NCBI RefSeq assembly: GCF_029714285.1
Contig: NZ_CP121664.1
Span: 186,001-250,000 of the forward strand
Reading direction: 5' to 3'
DNA length: 64,000 nt
Source: Rhizobium sp. CB3090
GTDB lineage: Bacteria; Pseudomonadota; Alphaproteobacteria; Rhizobiales; Rhizobiaceae
Part shown: piece after piece, positions 35,996 through 47,237 of the stretch
How positions within the stretch are numbered: position 1 is the stretch's first letter
Layout of the letters: each line of letters starts with the position of its first letter
The notes under the pieces: model-generated
The model's input: only the letters and a program-made list of their open reading frames with translations
Database searches by the model: none
What the model was told of the DNA's origin: nothing
Program-made: the position numbers and the translations under genes

Positions 35996-36088
35996 ATGCA
36001 CTTGCGCTCGTCAGCGCGACCGAGGAGTTCTTGTGCAGGCGCCATCCACACCTTTGTGATCAATATCAGTTGGGAACATGCGCAATGA
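35996..36088 (+). CDS. Short upstream reading frame coupled to nodH
   Basis: A 30-codon frame (MHLRSSARPRSSCAGAIHTF...) follows a good ribosome site (TTGGAGAAGG). Its TGA overlaps the nodH ATG (CAATGA). It could couple nodH translation to upstream ribosomes or be chance; the peptide resembles nothing known to me. Confidence 0.3.
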   Translation: MHLRSSARPRSSCAGAIHTFVINISWEHAQ

Positions 36089-36834
36089 TCCATTCCGTAC
36101 CGTCGCCTCAGCCATTTGTCATCCTTGCGATGCCGCGAACCGGGACGCACTATCTCGAAGCGTTGCTGAACGACCATGCAAATGTGTTGAGCAACGGTGA
36201 GTTGCTCAACAGCTATGATGAAAATTGGCCCGATAAGGATCGCCTCCGGCGCAGCGATCGCGAGCTTCTCGAGCTCGCCTATCTGCGCTATCCGCCAACC
36301 AAGAAGAAGGTGACGCACGTCGGTTGCAAAATCAACGAGCCTCAATTTTTTGACCGTCCGGGCTTTTTCGACGAATTGGCTCGTTGGCAAGGCCTCAGGG
36401 TCATTCTGCTTACTCGCAACACATTGGAATCCCTGCGATCGCTGGTGCAGGCAAGGCAAACGGGTCAGTGGCTGAAATTTAGCGCGGACCATAATGAGCC
36501 CCCAAGTGTCTCGCTGTCAGTGAACGAATGCGAAGCCTATTTCAAAGCTGCCGACGATTTCCATGCACGGGTCAAGAGCGCGTTCGATCCGAGCAAACTG
36601 CTGATGATCGAATACCAGGATCTTCTTCTTAAACCGAGCGCATGCCTGGCAGCCGTTTTGGCGTTCCTCGGAGCTCCCGCGCATAAGTCTTCCAATCGCG
36701 CCACCATTCAACGGCAGGAAACACGCTCGCTCGCCCAGTCGCTACAGAATTTTGAAGAGCTACGGCGGCACTTTGCAGGCGGGCCCTACGCGAAGTTCTT
36801 CGAGCTCGACGACGCATCGGCTCTGCAAGGATAA
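36085..36834 (+). CDS. nodH: Nod-factor sulfotransferase NodH
   Basis: The 249-residue protein [20 protein letters not shown] carries the PAPS-binding motif [13 protein letters not shown] at its N-terminus, [20 protein letters not shown], and a second PAPS-contact region [16 protein letters not shown]. It transfers sulfate from PAPS to the reducing-end sugar. NodPQ, which make PAPS, follow within 5 nt. Start chosen by homology at the ATG overlapping the upstream small frame. Confidence 0.95.
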
Positions 36835-36839
36835 ATGAG

Positions 36840-37739
36840 ATGTCTTTCGACAATCTGCGATACCTTGAAGCCGAAGCCATCCATATCATTCGGGAAGTCG
36901 CTGCGACCTTTTCAAATCCGGTTGTGCTCTATTCCATCGGAAAGGACTCCTCCGTTTTATTGCATCTCGCGATGAAGGCGTTCTTTCCGGGAAAACCACC
37001 CTTTCCCTTTCTTCATGTGGACACCCTGTGGAAGTTTCAGGAGATGATCGCCTTCCGCGACCGGATGATGCGGGAACTGGACCTGAAATTGATTGTCCAC
37101 GTCAATCAGGATGGCATCGATCAGGGCATCAGCCCCTTTCGAGACGGCTCCAACGTGCACACGCACGTGATGAAGACTCTGGCGCTGCGCCAGGCGTTGG
37201 ACAAATACCGTTTTGACGCTGCGCTCGCAGGCGCGCGCCGCGACGAGGAGAAATCGCGAGCCAAAGAGCGGATATTTTCCATTCGCAACGCCCAGCATGC
37301 TTGGGATCCGAAACGCCAGCGTCCGGAGATGTGGAAAACCTACAACACGCGTGTGAGCGCAGGCGAAACGATGCGCGTCTTTCCGCTTTCCAACTGGACC
37401 GAGCTCGACGTCTGGCAGTACATCCAAAAGGAAAATATTCCCGTCGTGCCACTCTATTTCGCGGCGCCGCGGCCCGTCGTGCGCCGCGGTGCGACGATGA
37501 TCATGGTCGATGACGAGCGCATGCCGCTTGAACCCGATGAAACGGTCACGCAACGGATGGTCCGTTTCCGCACGCTCGGCTGCTATCCTTTGACGGGCGC
37601 GATCGAATCCGGTGCGGCGACGGTGCCAGAAATTCTGCGCGAGATCGTGGAGGCACGCACCTCCGAGAGACAGAGCCGGCTGATCGATCTCGATGAGGCC
37701 GGCGCAATGGAGAAGAAGAAGCGCGAAGGGTACTTCTGA
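36840..37739 (+). CDS. nodP: Sulfate adenylyltransferase subunit 2 NodP
   Basis: The 299-residue PP-loop ATPase (CysD type) forms APS from sulfate and ATP together with the NodQ GTPase. The PP-loop is [18 protein letters not shown]; other family segments are [33 protein letters not shown] and [15 protein letters not shown]. Its stop overlaps the nodQ start by one base. Length typical. Confidence 0.96.
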
Positions 37740-39637
37740 TGTCATATCCTTTTTCCATCTTGCCGCATGACATGAAAGAGCATCTGGTCCAAGAGGACAA
37801 AGCACCGGTTCTTCGATTCATCACCTGCGGCTCGGTCGATGACGGAAAATCGACCTTAATCGGTCGACTGCTCTGCGATGCGGAATTGGTCTTCGAAGAT
37901 CAATTGGCGGACCTTCGCCGCGTCGGCATCGGCGGCGGCAATGGCGATGAAATCGATTTCTCTCTGCTGCTCGACGGCCTTGAGGCGGAGCGCGAGCAGG
38001 GCATCACCATTGATGTCGCATATCGCTATTTCTCCACGTCGAAGCGCAAGTTCATTGTTGCCGATACGCCCGGCCACCACGAATATACGCGCAATATGGC
38101 AACCGGCGCATCGACAGCCGATCTTGCCGTTATCCTCGTCGACAGCCGCCAAGGCATACTCCAGCAAACACGCAGGCATTCCTATCTCGCCTCGCTTCTC
38201 GGCATTCGCCATGTCGTGCTGGCGGTGAACAAGATCGATCTCGTCGATTTCAGCGAGCCGATATTTGATGCCATCGTGGCCGAATACGAAAGCTTCTCGG
38301 CAAAGCTGGGTTTTGCCAGTGTAACGGCTATTCCGATGTCTGCCCGCTTCGGAGACAATGTTGTTTCGAAATCCGGGCAATTACCCTGGTATCAAGGTCC
38401 GACGCTTCTTGAATATCTGGAAGCGGTTGAACTCGACCCAGCTGACAAGCAAAGACCCTTTCGTTTTCCCGTTCAGCTCGTCGTGCGGCCAAATTCGGAT
38501 TTTCGCGGCTATGCGGGCTGGATCGCATCCGGAAAAATTGCCGTCGGCGATCCTGTGATCGTTGCAAAATCAGGGCTGCGCTCCTCGGTCAGGGCGATCA
38601 TTGCCCCTGACGGCAACCAGATATCTGCCGCAGAAGGGGAACCGGTAACTTTGGTTCTAGCCGACGAGGTAGATGTCTCCAGGGGCGACATGCTGGTTGA
38701 CCCCGCCTCAAGGCCTTTTGTCTCGGACCAATTCCAGGCGCATCTTATTTGGTTCGGTGCCAATCCGATGCTCCCGGGACGAAGCTATCTCTTGCGGACG
38801 GAGACGGACAGTGTCAGCGCCACGGTGACTGCGCTCAAGCACCAACTGAATGTCGACAACTTCGTTCGCGAACCAGCCAAACTGCTTCAGATGAACGAGG
38901 TCGGCGTCTGCAACATCATGACGCAAAGACCGATCGTGTTTGACGCCTACGAGGAAAACAGGTCAACCGGCAATTTCATCATCGTCGATAGGGTAAGCAG
39001 CGCGACCGTCGGTGCCGGCATGATTGATTTCCCGCTTCGTCGTGCTGACAACGTTCATTGGCAAGCGCTCGACGTCGACAAGGCCGCGCGATCCGCGCTC
39101 AAGAACCAAGAGCCCGCCGTCCTTTGGCTCACCGGTCTGTCGGGTTCGGGCAAGTCGACGATCGCCAATGCGCTCGAAGCGCTTCTGCATACTTACGGCA
39201 AGCATACCTATCTCTTGGACGGAGATAACGTGCGCCACGGGCTTAATCGTGACCTTGGCTTTACCGCGGCCGATCGGGTCGAGAACATACGTCGCGTCGC
39301 TGAGGTCGCCAGATTGATGGCCGACGCAGGACTGATCGTGATTTGTTCCTTCATATCGCCCTTTCGGGATGAGCGGCGTATGGCGCGCGAGCTTATGGAT
39401 GAAGGCGAGTTCATCGAAATCTTTGTCGATACGCCCTTGGAGGAATGCGCGCGCCGCGATCCGAAAGGGCTCTATAAAAAGGCCTTTGCCGGCAACATCG
39501 CGAACTTCACCGGCGTCTCGTCTCCATATGAGGCGCCGGACAATCCGGAACTTCATCTCAAGACCGGCGGCCAGGAGCCGGCAACGTTAGCACTTCAGAT
39601 AGAAGAGTTCCTTCGAAGCCGAATGGAGGAGAAATAG
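37739..39637 (+). CDS. nodQ: Bifunctional sulfate adenylyltransferase GTPase subunit / APS kinase NodQ
   Basis: The 632-residue fusion has an N-terminal CysN-type GTPase (P-loop [43 protein letters not shown]) and a C-terminal APS kinase from about residue 455 (P-loop [52 protein letters not shown]). Together with NodP it converts sulfate to PAPS for NodH. It ends the nod operon. Confidence 0.97.
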
Positions 39638-40151: not shown

Positions 40152-41993
40152 CTATTCAAAAGTGGCCAGACGCTCGCGGACAATTTCTCGCATGTGCGCC
40201 GCCCGTTCAGCGCCGACTGAGCCATCTGCCAGCGGCGGTGGCAACGTAAGGGCGTCCAGGCCGTGAGCAAGCGCCGCGGCCAGCTCATCCATGGCCATAT
40301 CCGCCGCCGACGCCGGAATACCTGCGGTGGCGGCAAAGCGCCTGAAGTCCGCTCTCTTGAGCCGTTCGTCCTTGCCGCTGATCTTGAGCGCCATACGGTC
40401 GCTCTGCAGGGTCGGAAATACCCGCGTTGTGACCGCATCGTAGAGCGGCGCCATTCGGACGGAGCTAAAATCTCTCCTCCGTGGCTCCGCGATTTTCAGC
40501 ATGGCCATGTTCTTCAGATGCATATCGCCGTCCGCGATTAGCCAGGCGAACAGTGCCCGCCGCAAGATCAACAGCAGGTCCGCATCCGGATCAGTAGACA
40601 GCGGGCGCAGAGCGGATGCGATCCGCTCCATGGTACCCATGTATTTATCTTCCGCGGGCACGCCCAGAACCGACGCCATATCCTCGAGCACCAGACGGCG
40701 CATGTCGTCAAGGCTGGTGCGGATATCGAACCGCTCAACCACAAGGGCATGTGGCATGCCATCCGGCATGGCAACGAGCGCAATGGCGGGCACAATGAAT
40801 CCGACCGCCCGACCGAGTTCCATGGACTGCCATTCTATCGCGGGCAGCGCTTCGAATCCCGACGTGCCGGCGGGCTTGAGAATATGCGTGAACGGCTTGT
40901 TCGTGCTGGGCATAAGGGTGCCGTCGGCATCGAGAAACATCGGCGCCTTGATTTGTACGCCTGACAGGCGCGGTGTCGCGCCTGTCGCGAAGATTTTTGC
41001 CAGGTTCTGTTCGAACGTATCATGGATATCGCCGCGGCCGGGACCGGCATAGATCCCTGTAAACAGGTGATTTGCCGTGAAGGTGTTCAGCCGCGTCAGT
41101 AGAATATCGGCCGGAAGCGCCGTCAGCTCGCTTGCCCGCTCTACAATTGTGATGTTCGACATGTACCGCTTACCGGTGCGCAGTTCCGCCCGCTCGTCCG
41201 GGCTGTTTAGCACCCGGTTCAGCCACCCTTCCGGGAGTAGTGATTCAATGAAGGGAGGCAATCTGCCCGGCGTAGTCTGGCGCACAAGCGGCGGGCCGTC
41301 AGGATCGGACGCCTTCCACCGCCATTCGAAGCCATCATGCGCAAGGTTGCCGATCGGCGCACCGTGCCATGCCACGGTTAGGTCGAGCGCGGCCTGGTTG
41401 GTGAGAGTTACGGCGGCCGCCGGCTTCCGTTTGAGGAAACGCTCGGCGGCGCTGCCTTCAGCAAGCCAGTCATTGTCGCGGGCAAGTTTAAACACCGCAT
41501 CGGCGGCGCTCTCTGGATTCCCATATTCTTCAATCAGCCGTGCGGCGATTGCCTCTTTCATGTCTTCGTTGAACGAGGCCGCATGTTCACTACGGATGCG
41601 GAAGGCTTCCAGAAAACGCTGGCGCAGCGAAGACACGGCCACGCGGAACTCGCCCATGTTGTCGCCGACCGCCGCCTGCGCGACGGACGGGTTGTCCGGC
41701 GCTTTGTTCTGAATGATTTCGAGCGTCCTAATGCGCTGCCGCTGCACGCGGCGGCCGGTTAGAAACAGGCGGCCATCGCGCAACGGGCCGAGCAGAACGG
41801 CACTGGCGGCCGACAGGTAGGCGTTCGGGTAGAGATATTTAGCGATGCGTACAGCGTGGGTCCGCACCGTCTGATCTATGTCATCGTCGGCATCAACATA
41901 GATACCGCGCATAAGCTGGACCAGCTTGCCGGCTTCCGCCTGACGGTGGCCACGCGTTTTGTCAATGTTTTCGCCGACGAGATGAAGAGGCAT
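40152..41993 (-). CDS. AbiEi-like antitoxin domain fused to a HipA-family kinase
   Basis: The 613-residue protein has two parts. Residues about 1-190 look like a type IV AbiEi-type regulator: LVQLMRGIYVDADDD, then AKYLYPNAYLSAASAVLLG. From about 203 it is HipA: LTVAWHGAPIGNLAHDG (HipA N-terminal domain), ATP-loop-like SGVQIK (344-349), catalytic loop DGDMHLKN (488-495, with Asp490, Lys494 and Asn495 intact) and MAPLYDAV. HipA kinases phosphorylate aminoacyl-tRNA synthetases and are normally silenced by HipB; no hipB is adjacent. Start at 41993 lies 4 nt from a 35-bp palindrome; a second copy is further upstream. Confidence 0.85.
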   Translation of the reverse strand: MPLHLVGENIDKTRGHRQAEAGKLVQLMRGIYVDADDDIDQTVRTHAVRIAKYLYPNAYLSAASAVLLGPLRDGRLFLTGRRVQRQRIRTLEIIQNKAPDNPSVAQAAVGDNMGEFRVAVSSLRQRFLEAFRIRSEHAASFNEDMKEAIAARLIEEYGNPESAADAVFKLARDNDWLAEGSAAERFLKRKPAAAVTLTNQAALDLTVAWHGAPIGNLAHDGFEWRWKASDPDGPPLVRQTTPGRLPPFIESLLPEGWLNRVLNSPDERAELRTGKRYMSNITIVERASELTALPADILLTRLNTFTANHLFTGIYAGPGRGDIHDTFEQNLAKIFATGATPRLSGVQIKAPMFLDADGTLMPSTNKPFTHILKPAGTSGFEALPAIEWQSMELGRAVGFIVPAIALVAMPDGMPHALVVERFDIRTSLDDMRRLVLEDMASVLGVPAEDKYMGTMERIASALRPLSTDPDADLLLILRRALFAWLIADGDMHLKNMAMLKIAEPRRRDFSSVRMAPLYDAVTTRVFPTLQSDRMALKISGKDERLKRADFRRFAATAGIPASAADMAMDELAAALAHGLDALTLPPPLADGSVGAERAAHMREIVRERLATFE

Positions 41994-41997
41994 ATAT

Positions 41998-42032
41998 GTA
42001 ACTTTCGCGTATTTCAGATACGAGAAGGTTAC
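41998..42032 (-). promoter_or_regulatory. Palindromic operator A of the AbiEi/HipA fusion gene
   Basis: A 35-bp imperfect palindrome: it begins GTAACTTTCGCGTATTTC and ends AGATACGAGAAGGTTAC. It lies directly in front of the fusion gene ATG and would cover its ribosome site. Nearly the same sequence occurs at 42061-42095 and 45704-45738. Confidence 0.75.
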
Positions 42033-42060
42033 AACATTCGTTTTCGGGCTGCAAGGAATT

Positions 42061-42095
42061 GTAACTATCACGTATTTCAGATACGCGATAGTTAC
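42061..42095 (-). promoter_or_regulatory. Palindromic operator B of the AbiEi/HipA fusion gene
   Basis: GTAACTATCACGTATTTC and AGATACGCGATAGTTAC form an almost perfect 35-bp palindrome. It starts 63 bases (six helical turns) from copy A, a spacing that allows side-by-side protein binding. Probably an autoregulatory operator. Confidence 0.75.
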
Positions 42096-42179
42096 AATTT
42101 TTCGATGCTGCTGAGACGATCAAAGATATAATAACGCATTGAGTTATAAGAAAAATACTTATTTCAAAATTAGTATTGT

Positions 42180-42739: not shown

Positions 42740-43525
42740 ATGAAAAAACCCAAACTAACTACCGTCCTTCGAGCCGCCGGCGATGTCATTCAAATCGACG
42801 ATGCTGCGCGCGCACTCGCCATCTCGCGCGTCCAAGCCGCCAAGACTCTGTCGGCATGGGCGGCGCAAGGATGGCTACAGCGCGTCGGCACGGGTGTTTA
42901 CGCGCCTGTTTCTCTGGATATGCGGGGTAGCGACCAGACGATAGCTGACGCGTGGCTGTTGGTCCCCGCGCTTTTCGGTCCCGCTTATATCGGTGGCCGA
43001 ACAGCTGCAGAATATTGGGATCTTACCGAACAACTGTTTCGCGACATCGTCGTCTTTACGGCCCGACCTATCCGAAACCGCATCAAGGAAAGCGGTGGAG
43101 CGCAATTTACGTTGCGTCAGATCCCGGAGTCGCGCATCTTCGGCATCAAATCAGTCTGGCGCGAACACACGAAAGTCAGCGTCTCCGACATCGACCGGAC
43201 TATGCTCGACATACTGGACGATCCGCCGATCGGCGGCGGCATCCAACATGTGACCGACTGCCTCGACCGCTACCTGCATAAAAATGACAGCAAGCCGGAC
43301 CGGCTGATCGCCTATGCCGATCAACTCGACAACGGAGCGGTGTTCAAACGCCTTGGTTTCCTGGCAGAACGTCATCCGCTCGGAGCAGCACTCGTCACCG
43401 CGTGCAAAGCGCGGCTAACGAAAGGCTACGCCAAACTCGATCCCACACTTATGTGCGATCGCGTCGTGACACGTTGGAAACTGAAAGTCCCGGCCAGCTG
43501 GATCGCAGTATCAAGCCATGATTAG
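42740..43525 (+). CDS. Type IV toxin-antitoxin system AbiEi family antitoxin
   Basis: The 261-residue protein starts MKKPKLTTVLRAAGDVIQID with a winged helix-turn-helix (ALAISRVQAAKTLSAWAAQG, WLQRVGTGVYAP), followed by the AbiEi C-terminal domain (PAYIGGRTAAEYWDLTEQLF, VSDIDRTMLDILDDP). AbiEi represses the operon and opposes the AbiEii nucleotidyltransferase. It overlaps the toxin gene by 8 nt. AbiE systems give phage abortive infection and stabilise plasmids. The promoter region is markedly AT-rich compared with neighbours, a sign of transfer. Confidence 0.88.
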   Translation: MKKPKLTTVLRAAGDVIQIDDAARALAISRVQAAKTLSAWAAQGWLQRVGTGVYAPVSLDMRGSDQTIADAWLLVPALFGPAYIGGRTAAEYWDLTEQLFRDIVVFTARPIRNRIKESGGAQFTLRQIPESRIFGIKSVWREHTKVSVSDIDRTMLDILDDPPIGGGIQHVTDCLDRYLHKNDSKPDRLIAYADQLDNGAVFKRLGFLAERHPLGAALVTACKARLTKGYAKLDPTLMCDRVVTRWKLKVPASWIAVSSHD

Positions 43526-44942
43526 TAAGGCCGAGATCCTGGAAACAGCGGGGAAGGTTGGCCTTCGCCCCGACGTGGTCGAGAAGGATTACGCTCTGGG
43601 CTGGACGCTCGCCGGGATTTCCGCGCATGAGGATTTGCGCGAGACGTGGATCTTCAAGGGCGGAACGTGTTTGAAGAAATGCTACTTCGAGACCTACCGG
43701 TTTTCGGAGGATCTCGACTTCACTCTAATGGACGAAGCCCATCTCAATCAGGAATTCCTCAAGCGTGTCTTTGGCGAGATCGCCGATTGGATTTATGAGC
43801 GCTCAGGCCTTGAGATACCTGCTGAAGGACAGAGCTTCGACCTCTTCAATAACCCACGTGGCAATATCTCTTGCCAAGGCAAGCTGAGCTACAAAGGGCC
43901 TGTTTCGCCCAATGTCGCTCTCATTCGCCTGCCGCGCATCAAACTCGATCTCACCGCCGATGAGCGCATCGTCCTGCCGGCGGTAAGGACACCGGTTTTC
44001 CATTCTTATAGCGATGCGCAGGAGGCCAGCTTCGAAGTCCTATCCTACAGCTATGTAGAGACCTTCGGCGAAAAAGTGCGGGCGCTTGCGGAACGCACAA
44101 GACCGCGAGATCTCTACGATGTCGTCAATCTGTTTCGGAATGCCGAAGCGCGCCCGCGTGCTGCTGAGCTCCTTGATGTTCTTCGGCAGAAGTGCGATTT
44201 CAAAGGCATTGCAGTGCCGAAGCTAGAGGACCTTGCGAGCCACCGCGACGCGCTTGAAGGAAGTTGGGCGGCCATGCTGGCGCACCAGCTTCCGGCCCTG
44301 CCACCTGTAGATGATTTCTGGAGTGTGCTGCCCGAGTTCTTCGCTTGGCTTACCGGCGGTGAAATGCCTGTCGAATTGCCTGTCTTCGCGCTAGCGGCGG
44401 GTGAAACCGTTATTCACGGCCGCACGTTCAGCTTGGATATCCCGAATACGTCGCAGACGTATCTCGAAATCATCCGCTTCGCGGGTGGAAACCGGCTGTG
44501 TGTTGATCTTGATTATCAGGGCACAACAAGGCGCATCGAGCCCTACTCGCTGCGTCGCACGAGTGAAGGCAATATCGTCCTTCACGCCTTTAATCTCAAC
44601 AAGAACGAACACCGCAGCTACCGGGTCGACCGCATCACCGGCGCGCGCGCGACCACCCAGACATTTGGGCCACGCTATGCTGTTGAGCTTACACCCTCGG
44701 GACCAATTACCATTCCGCATTCACGGAATGGCGGCTCATTCGGCGATATGGCGTTGAATCGCCCCCGTCTCGCGCCCGCACGATCCCGTGCATTCGGTCA
44801 TCCAACCTATGTCTATCAGTGCCCGGTTTGTCAGAAAAAGTTCCGCAGGCAAACAAACGACAGCTCACTGAAACCGCACAAAACACCGCAGGGGTATCCG
44901 TGCCCGGGCCGCACAGGCTATCTCGCAGATACGCAATATTGA
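43518..44942 (+). CDS. AbiEii/AbiGii-family nucleotidyltransferase toxin with WYL-like domain and zinc knuckle
   Basis: The 474-residue protein has the AbiEii nucleotidyltransferase at its N-terminus: VEKDYALGW (21-29), FKGGTCLKKC (47-56), RFSEDLDFTL (61-70), IKLDLT and FGEKVRALAERTRPRDLYDV. Residues about 300-385 resemble a WYL domain (LCVDLDYQGTTRRIEPYSLR, EHRSYRVDRITGA). The last 42 residues form a C2HC-like knuckle: CPVC (435-438), His454, Cys462. AbiEii toxins are usually about 300 residues, so the two C-terminal modules are additions. The toxin presumably transfers nucleotides to tRNA or another acceptor. Confidence 0.85.
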   Translation: MISKAEILETAGKVGLRPDVVEKDYALGWTLAGISAHEDLRETWIFKGGTCLKKCYFETYRFSEDLDFTLMDEAHLNQEFLKRVFGEIADWIYERSGLEIPAEGQSFDLFNNPRGNISCQGKLSYKGPVSPNVALIRLPRIKLDLTADERIVLPAVRTPVFHSYSDAQEASFEVLSYSYVETFGEKVRALAERTRPRDLYDVVNLFRNAEARPRAAELLDVLRQKCDFKGIAVPKLEDLASHRDALEGSWAAMLAHQLPALPPVDDFWSVLPEFFAWLTGGEMPVELPVFALAAGETVIHGRTFSLDIPNTSQTYLEIIRFAGGNRLCVDLDYQGTTRRIEPYSLRRTSEGNIVLHAFNLNKNEHRSYRVDRITGARATTQTFGPRYAVELTPSGPITIPHSRNGGSFGDMALNRPRLAPARSRAFGHPTYVYQCPVCQKKFRRQTNDSSLKPHKTPQGYPCPGRTGYLADTQY

Positions 44943-45602: not shown

Positions 45603-45704
45603 CGATTGATACCGCACATCAGCTGGACCGGTTTGTCGACCTCTGCGTGGCCGCGGCCGAGCATTTTTTGTGATGTTTTCGTCGACGAGATAAGGGACCT
45701 GATG
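45603..45704 (-). pseudogene. Truncated second copy of the AbiEi/HipA fusion 5' end
   Basis: On the minus strand, directly behind a third copy of the operator palindrome, codons read GHAEVDKPVQLMCGIN, matching GHRQAEAGKLVQLMRGIY of the fusion protein near its N-terminus. The DNA itself is also recognisably related (TGTTTTCG-CGACGAGAT blocks in both). The copy has no proper start codon and stops after about 35 codons. Confidence 0.6.
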
Positions 45705-45738
45705 GAACTTTCGCGTATCTCAAATATGCGAAAGTTAC
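45704..45738 (-). promoter_or_regulatory. Palindromic operator C (third copy)
   Basis: It begins GGAACTTTCGCGTATCTC and ends AAATATGCGAAAGTTAC. It differs from copies A and B mainly by paired changes that keep the palindrome arms complementary, so it may still be bound by the same regulator although the gene behind it is a fragment. Confidence 0.65.
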
Positions 45739-45870: not shown

Positions 45871-47237
45871 GATGATGTCCCAGGGAGTGGTGTAGCAGGG
45901 TAGCGGTGGCCATCAGTGTTTTTCCGGTAGGGTCGGTTTGTCGAAGACCAACCTGATGGAAAGACCACCGATGACCGACGAGATGATGAACCTGCGCTCG
46001 CTTGTTGAGAAGAGCGCCGACGCCGATTTGCTTCGCGAGATGATCGGGTTTGCCGCCGAGAAGCTTATGGAGCTGGAGGTCGGTGCGAAGACCGGCGCGA
46101 GCTACGGCGAGAAGAACGCCTTTCGGCTTACCCAGCGCAACGGCTACCGCGAGCGCGACTGGGAGACACGGGCCGGGACCGTGGAGCTGCGTATCCCGAA
46201 GCTTCGTACCGGCACCTATTTCCCGAGCTTTCTCGAGCCGCGTCGCATGGCCGAGAAGGCTCTGACCGCCGTAATTCAAGAGGCTTACATCCAAGGCGTT
46301 TCGACCCGCTCCGTCGACGATCTGGTCAAGGCGATGGGCATGAGCGGCATCTCCAAAAGCCAGGTTTCCCGCCTGTGTGAGGAGATCGACGACAAGGTAA
46401 AGGCCTTCCTTGAAAGGCCCATCGAGGGCGACTGGCCCTATCTGTGGATCGACGCCACGTATCTGAAGGTCCGCCGCGGTGGCCGCATCGTCTCGGTCGC
46501 CGTCATTATCGCCGTCGGCGTCAACACCGATGGGCGGCGCGAGGTCCTGGGTATGGAGATCGGCACCTCCGAGGCCGAGCCGATCTGGACGGAGTTCCTG
46601 CGCAAGCTGACACGGCGGGGTTTGCGCGGCGTCAAGCTGGTCGTCTCCGATGCGCATGAGGGCATCAAGGCCGCCGTTTCGAAGGTTCTCTCCGCGACCT
46701 GGCAGCGATGCCGGGTCCACTTCATGCGCAATGCGCTCGCCCATGCCGGAAAGAGCGGTCGACGGGTGGTCTCCGCCTTCATCGCCACGGCCTTTGCCCA
46801 GGACACACCAGAGGCCGCCAGCCAGCAATGGCGCAATGTCGCCGATCAGATCAGGCCGAAAGTACCGAAGCTTGCCACCCTCATGGACAGTGCCGAAGAA
46901 GACGTGCTGGCCTACATGACCTTTCCCCGTCAGCACTGGACGAAGCTGCACAGCACCAACCCTATCGAGCGACTGAACGGCGAGATCAAGCGCCGAACCG
47001 AGGTTGTCGGCATATTCCCAAACGAGGACGCCATCGTCAGGCTCGTCGGCGCGTTGCTCCTCGAACAGAATGACGAATGGGCCGTACAGCGCTCCCGATA
47101 CATGACCCTTGAGACCATCGCCACAATGAGCGATGATCCAATCATCAGCCTGCCTGCTGCGGCAAGCTGATCCAGTCCCGGCTCTGCCCGGAAGGCACGG
47201 CGAACGCCGAAGCTACACCACTCCCTGGGACATCATC
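45871..47237 (+). mobile_element. IS256-family insertion sequence, 1367 bp
   Basis: Perfect 26-bp inverted repeats bound the element: the left begins GATGATGTCCCAGGGAGTGG and the right ends CCACTCCCTGGGACATCATC. AGAGGAAG is duplicated on both sides (45863-45870 and 47238-47245), an 8-bp target duplication as usual for IS256. It contains one intact transposase gene, so the copy may be active. Confidence 0.95.
45971..47170 (+). CDS. IS256-family transposase
   Basis: The 399-residue protein is a complete mutator-type DDE transposase: [20 protein letters not shown], first Asp in [20 protein letters not shown], second in [17 protein letters not shown], and the Glu in [20 protein letters not shown]. 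Start taken at [12 protein letters not shown]; an ATG at 45956 is also possible. No frameshift is seen. Confidence 0.95.

Follow-up and report, generated by a model that had tools for sequence, protein, structure and literature searches.

In HipA of Escherichia coli, control of the kinase depends on a serine in the P-loop, and N-subdomain 1 of the protein belongs to the active toxin. In HipBST systems, the HipS residues Glu63-Gly-Trp65 block the kinase HipT, a W65A variant of HipS no longer neutralises HipT, and Trp65 is kept in some HipS proteins, not in all (PMC10627512). For HipH (YjjJ), a Hip kinase with an HTH extension of ~100 amino acids, Gerdes et al. propose a cis-acting antitoxin, and AbiEi is not mentioned in their main text (PMC8262856). 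AbiEi of type IV systems is described as having a winged helix with three helices; in S. agalactiae it represses its own expression by binding inverted repeats, namely two 23-bp repeats 3 bp apart (PMC7319586). Fused toxin-antitoxin genes of the relE-yiaG type are known as well (PMC11980606).

Here, a 64,000-nucleotide stretch of DNA from Rhizobium sp. CB3090 (the window) was analysed, in which one gene joins an AbiEi-like module to a Hip kinase. The reading favoured by this analysis, with a probability of about 0.52, is a one-protein Hip kinase system that would combine autorepression by its N-terminal module with a HipS-like brake acting in cis, in the order B-S-T.

Gene structure and predicted domains

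The fused gene (40152..41993, minus strand) was confirmed as the single open reading frame of 613 amino acids that had been predicted originally, with an ATG start. Its relatives were sampled as the best 80 of 186 found in a genome scan (61-93% identical over the whole protein), of which 69 loci, together with the window, made up a protein alignment of 70 sequences (A1). Translation from an upstream GTG at 42071, through the operators, was ruled out by in-frame stops; among the relatives, such stops occurred at most 41 nt upstream of the start in 51 of 79 loci and at most 105 nt upstream in 71 of 79. Fold prediction showed the domain order to be AbiEi-type module, HipS-like subdomain and kinase. 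All three predicted parts lie on the minus strand: an AbiEi-fold module in residues 1-190 (41424..41993), composed of a trimmed winged helix and an NTase-like, antitoxin-type domain (PADLOC, predicted fold); a HipS-like subdomain, or HipA N-subdomain 1, in residues 203-290 (41124..41387); and a fused HipA/HipT-type kinase core in residues 300-613 (40155..41096), assigned by HipA_C, fold match and sequence alignment. Linker residues 191-200 were weakly ordered in the predicted structure.

Structure prediction and profile searches of the N-terminus recovered the AbiEi fold together with a weak AbiEi-like PADLOC match; the originally proposed resemblance to AbiEi was thus clear by predicted fold and weak by sequence. 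The best predicted-fold match was the AbiEi antitoxin 6y8q, and the NTase-like fold of the AbiEi C-terminus was also present in the predicted module. The best PADLOC AbiEi match covered residues 8-68 (E 7e-4), and the AbiEi family in Pfam gave no match to the 613-amino-acid protein at E ≤ 1. In the structure model, one helix (residues 12-20; 41934..41960, minus strand) preceded the wing strands, and this trimmed winged helix may bind DNA in a mode different from that of AbiEi. A profile search with the N-terminus yielded 493 matches. The best 120 of these (59-87% identity) resembled gene fragments, several being labelled HipA or partial, and were therefore uninformative on a free-standing module beside a hip kinase.

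AbiEi-like modules also occurred with other partners. A 492-amino-acid protein (L097, 529-2007) carried an AbiEi-like N-terminus and a Fic domain (E 7e-14); its N-terminus matched positions 18-84 of the A2 profile (E 8e-5) and no PADLOC AbiEi profile at 0.01. Its relatives were found on plasmids of Proteobacteria and Bacteroidetes, and 19 of the 21 matching plasmid records covered at least 80% of the protein. On Xanthomonas plasmids (L099, 3977-5619), a gene for a free-standing 217-amino-acid relative of the N-terminal module was followed, after 2 bases, by one for a 328-amino-acid protein that matched nothing in Pfam or PADLOC, no kinase domain being found in Pfam.

Paired operators and putative promoter

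The two palindromes that had been predicted 63 bp apart directly before the start codon were both verified on the minus strand, at 41997..42034 (proximal; 31-bp core 42000-42030) and 42060..42097 (distal; 31-bp core 42063-42093). Both were recovered by motif scan and as a direct-repeat pair, 87% alike at a spacing of 63. The distal palindrome was additionally detected as an inverted repeat (42057-42099) with arms of 19 nt; its proximal counterpart, which is less perfect, was not listed as such. Inverted repeats are present in the gene's own putative promoter, as for AbiEi. A terminator scan found no terminators at the palindromes.

The operator motif was defined as AACTTTCSCGTAT-N5-ATACGSGAAAGTT, with a match requiring at least 18 of 26 positions at most 300 bp from the start. 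With consensus and threshold chosen after viewing the same loci, 78 of the 79 usable loci, which include the window, had at least one operator and 71 had two. Two loci (L038, L053) had been left out, their upstream sequence being too short; L069 fell below the 18/26 threshold, and 8 of 79 loci were without a second site at that threshold. Further looks at the operator were taken in the flanks of these loci, in the window's own genome and in the later-found loci L085, L086 and L094-L096, where the sites were diverged, as judged by eye. The flanks contained five matches, one of them the relic described below (~1.0 Mb with promoter regions, roughly 0.9 Mb without). At ≤3 mismatches, three sites were found in the window, against 0.00 expected from 100 shuffles; the whole genome (6.49 Mb) likewise held three, two at this gene and one at its relic, and the reversed control pattern gave 0.

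For 73 pairs, measured at positions fixed near the start with a match of at least 17/26, operator spacing was 62-65 bp in 65 and 61-68 bp in 71, the other two being 52 and 55 bp. A spacing of 63 bp corresponds to about six helical turns, which places both operators on one DNA face and suggests cooperative binding. A putative promoter (42026..42054, minus strand) would have its -35 box, TTGCAG (42049-42054), between the operators and, after 17 nt, a -10-like element, TAACCT (42026-42031), within the proximal operator. Among sequences from 72 loci, 79-85% had the trinucleotide TTG 24 bases ahead of the proximal operator, in a comparison that required a site score of at least 17 and left out L021-L026, near-copies of L019. 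As a strict sigma-70 consensus scan of the window found no promoter, we infer the -35 and -10 assignment from these features.

Covariation of operators and N-terminal residues

Operator distances were compared with protein distances for 69 of the 70 aligned sequences. The correlation was stronger for residues 1-38 (r 0.583) than for the kinase (r 0.340; 69 loci). The partial correlation for residues 1-38 given the kinase was 0.509, a value reached by 0 of 499 permutations, and that for the kinase given residues 1-38 was 0.087 (30/499). The other 14 of 15 consecutive 38-residue segments gave partial correlations of at most 0.214. At synonymous sites, codons 1-38 gave 0.130 and no segment exceeded 0.185, so that the signal of residues 1-38 is hardly accounted for by promoter linkage alone. 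K12 and A19, both in predicted helix 12-20, ranked first in association with operator divergence.

After dereplication to 46 rows, the value was 0.465, with random residue sets reaching up to 0.352. In the 63 rows with K12 (6 non-K12 rows dropped) it was 0.195 (9/499), with random sets up to 0.302; this weak signal among K12 rows indicated that a few lineages carry the covariation. Ala12 is found in L069 and L080, whose operators have outer arms of the type ATTA/ATAAT, and the later-found L086 also combines Ala12 with an operator of this altered type. Operator divergence thus tracked residues 1-38 better than the kinase, though a few lineages carried most of the signal.

The original prediction had the fused N-terminus both bind the palindromes and restrain the kinase in cis. 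Its first part was supported: from the conserved operators and the covariation of residues 1-38, we strongly infer autorepression by the N-terminal module. Restraint in cis is plausible, by analogy with HipS, via W257 in the following subdomain.

HipS-like subdomain and kinase core

The intact catalytic loop of the original prediction, DGDMHLKN (D488-G-D490-M-H-L-K-N495; 40509..40532, minus strand), was confirmed at residues 488-495. It lies in a HipA_C match spanning residues 343-575 (E 6e-40; 137.6 bits against a curated cut-off of 30.5). The catalytic Asp and Asn (D490, N495) and the Mg-binding Asp (D519) were invariant in 70 of 70 sequences and aligned with those of HipA/HipT. By sequence, the solved structure nearest to the kinase core was Legionella HipT (E 1.8e-27); E. 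coli HipT (E 7.5e-9) matched more weakly than E. coli HipA (E 2.5e-15). In the P-loop RLSGVQIK (residues 342-349; 40947..40970, minus strand), the position of the autophosphorylated serine of other Hip kinases (HipA S150, HipT S57) was occupied by Arg in 69 and by His in 1 of the 70 sequences; the serine was present in all 12 other Hip kinases compared (four by eye).

Residues 203-290 matched HipS/HipA subdomain 1 in predicted fold (7czo, 7ab3). E255 and W257 (E255-G256-W257 codons 41223..41231, minus strand) aligned with E63 and W65 of 7ab3_B in a weak sequence match (E 0.08) that ranked below an unrelated pollen allergen (0.026), and the predicted HipS assignment leans on the fold matches. 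E-G-W was invariant in the family (70/70), in the context PEGW in 69 of 70. This context is present in HipS and occurred in 0 of the 12 other Hip kinases compared; E. coli HipA has PDSP and HipH PQGF at the position. A Trp there is not confined to HipS, as PDAW occurs in L001, a HipA of ordinary length encoded in the same genome as the window, and PDxW in Hip-like kinases close to family members at L035, L050 and L063.

These motifs bear on a credible, though less probable, alternative, in which the protein is an autorepressed kinase without a brake in cis: the AbiEi-like module would do no more than repress transcription, the kinase would be harmless owing to low expression, and the active enzyme would include the HipS-like subdomain. 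The operators, the best-supported feature of the locus, fit this alternative, as do the presence of the same subdomain inside the active HipA toxin and the Trp of L001, L035, L050 and L063. It is opposed by the invariant E-G-W of the family and by a PEGW that is found in HipS and that all 12 other Hip kinases compared lack.

Genomic neighbourhood and distribution

As predicted, no hipB gene adjoins the fused gene in the window. HTH_3 was detected in 2 of 145 flanking same-strand ORFs of relatives, in a scan of 145 analyst-chosen ORFs out of 222 that left out near-copies L020-L026 and covered the first 25 of 32 families. The most recurrent neighbour family occurred in at most 9 of 81 loci, and recurring families were mostly synteny groups of close relatives. 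A conserved hipB-like partner nearby is absent. In contrast, an HTH or antitoxin gene was annotated directly upstream in 7 of 9 ordinary HipA plasmid loci examined; of the remaining two, L102 carries its HTH-protein gene immediately after the kinase, and at L109 there is just a small ORF without a name.

An ordinary HipA toxin with an N-terminal extension that is not an antitoxin, and with its antitoxin encoded elsewhere, is improbable in view of the lack of a conserved neighbour, the confinement of genomic operators (≤3 mismatches) to this gene and its relic, and the Arg that replaces the P-loop serine needed for HipA control. What speaks for it is that antitoxins can act in trans, that E. 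coli HipB rescues HipH toxicity (PMC9948734) and that another hipB-like HTH gene adjoins HipA in L002.

An AbiEi/AbiEii pair on the plus strand (42740-44942; AbiEi 42740-43525) starts 0.75 kb upstream of the fused gene. Its AbiEii, to which a WYL domain is added and whose C-terminus may be zinc-ribbon-like (a match below curated cut-offs), is paired with its own AbiEi on the opposite strand and is not in the operon of the fused gene. The neighbouring AbiEi was rejected as the origin of the N-terminus (hhalign probability 0.6%). That the N-terminal module, with its AbiEi plus NTase-like fold, is an antitoxin against an AbiEii nucleotidyltransferase, the kinase being a passenger or signalling output, is very unlikely, since relatives of the window's AbiEii stood beside the family in 0 of 80 loci and a Pfam scan of the 145 flanking ORFs showed no AbiEii among 25 of 32 families. 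Binding of the palindromes by the neighbouring AbiEi, which would co-regulate both genes, has the least to recommend it: the pair adjoins the fused gene here and in plasmid pCB3171_2, but the operators were kept across 80 loci, none with a related AbiEi/AbiEii within 4.5 kb (blastp E 1e-8), and no similarity in sequence was detected between the two AbiEi modules.

A relic at 45608..45736 (minus strand), identified by motif and tblastn, consists of a near-perfect operator (core 45706-45736; 1 mismatch) and a degenerate remnant of the 5' part of a second gene copy, whose tblastn match to residues 14-31 is weak alone (E 6). It stands just before a Mutator-family (Transposase_mut) transposase gene (45938-47170), and a site also occurs in pCB3171_2 (L098, 12829-12859). 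The relic operator might titrate the repressor.

The family is sparse, being present in 3 of 398 genomes of the phylum, its own included. Plasmid records at E ≤ 1e-40 numbered 78, of which 45 were from Pseudosulfitobacter; phage records gave no match at E ≤ 1e-10. In the database, 2307 proteins among 7998 candidates scored had E ≤ 0.001, a set that may include other Hip kinases; 120 database relatives among the matches listed were 67-93% identical and, where named, mostly called HipA or similar. Several plasmid matches (H70, H90, H110) were fragments of the fused gene without the rest, for example residues 1-136 in Pararhizobium (87.5%) and residues 3-35 in Rhizobium sp. NZLR1 (82%). Such isolated fragments suggest that the gene is rapidly gained and lost.

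The window has the look of a symbiotic plasmid: 12 kb of it are matched by pCB3171_2 (96.8% over 85%), and nodI and nif genes are nearby. Genes for a sulfotransferase, an ATP-sulfurylase-type enzyme and an APS kinase (36031-39637, plus strand), which we take to be nodHPQ, adjoin the kinase gene. R. tropici CIAT 899 and the other matches listed share the sulfation genes only, so that the block of kinase and AbiE genes has the appearance of an accessory insert. In nine loci, mostly of Betaproteobacteria (L050, L059, L060, L061, L067, L071, L072, L074, L078), a GTPase gene, its product presumably similar to peptide release factor 3, is found downstream of the kinase gene; this is perhaps a favoured site of insertion. 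A second Hip-like kinase gene of another branch lies at most 4.5 kb away in L035 (4785-6065), L050 (2263-3801) and L063 (4014-5303), and the encoded proteins show, by eye, PDxWGRR and GG-x-RPK motifs.

Proposed mechanism

In the favoured one-protein system with autorepression and a brake in cis, residues 1-190 would bind both palindromes, perhaps cooperatively as both lie on one DNA face, and shut off their own promoter, which appears to lie between and extend into them. W257 of the HipS-like residues 203-290, placed at the Gly-rich loop, would hold the kinase (residues 300-613) off in cis. We propose that some signal, such as infection by a phage or a cut in linker 191-200, would release this brake, and that the freed kinase would stop growth by phosphorylating its target, which is probably a translation factor. 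A tentative extension, which we hold possible rather than probable, is that a hipBST-type system collapsed, in the order of its operon, into one chain in which the AbiEi fold would replace HipB. AbiEi-like modules would be portable N-terminal controllers of unrelated toxins, namely kinases here and Fic enzymes in the family of L097, and the P-loop serine switch, changed to Arg, would be dispensable.

As a single chain cannot use unequal decay of antitoxin and toxin, the release of a Hip kinase becomes a directly testable question in such a system. If correct, the mechanism would also connect Hip systems with type IV (AbiE) systems, two groups normally considered separately.

Comparison with known systems

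A literature search on HipA with AbiEi, with most subscription papers and preprints outside its scope, found no description of this fusion. One-gene Hip kinases are already known from HipH. E. coli HipH is monocistronic, as the fused gene probably is, and likewise has a DNA-binding-like N-terminal domain ahead of a Hip kinase. However, HipH comprises 443 amino acids with an HTH extension of ~100, compared with 613 amino acids and an AbiEi-fold module of ~190 in the fused protein, which further differs in its PEGW (HipH PQGF), its P-loop Arg and its paired operators. The two share hardly any sequence similarity, and HipH sits on a very long branch of unsure placement.

The relE-yiaG fusions resemble the fused gene in uniting a toxin and an antitoxin or HTH protein in one gene, but their parts are unrelated and the toxin comes first. 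With AbiEi (6y8q, Rv2827c), the N-terminal module shares a predicted two-part fold and, probably, autorepression via upstream inverted repeats. In contrast to AbiEi, it has one helix instead of three before the wing, is fused to a kinase and has no AbiEii in its operon, and its 31-bp palindromes are 63 bp apart, whereas the repeats reported for S. agalactiae AbiEi are 23 bp long and 3 bp apart.

Relative to HipBA of E. coli, the fused gene is without hipB and without the P-loop serine, and has PEGW where HipA has PDSP. HipBST of E. coli O127:H6 and Legionella is alike in the part order B-S-T, in the HipS-like Glu-Gly-Trp and in a kinase nearest to Legionella HipT, but consists of three separate genes, with an unrelated HTH protein as HipB, and the fused system is one open frame. 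If the favoured reading is true, the locus would show how a two- or three-gene toxin-antitoxin operon can become one gene, whose single chain unites repressor, brake and kinase.
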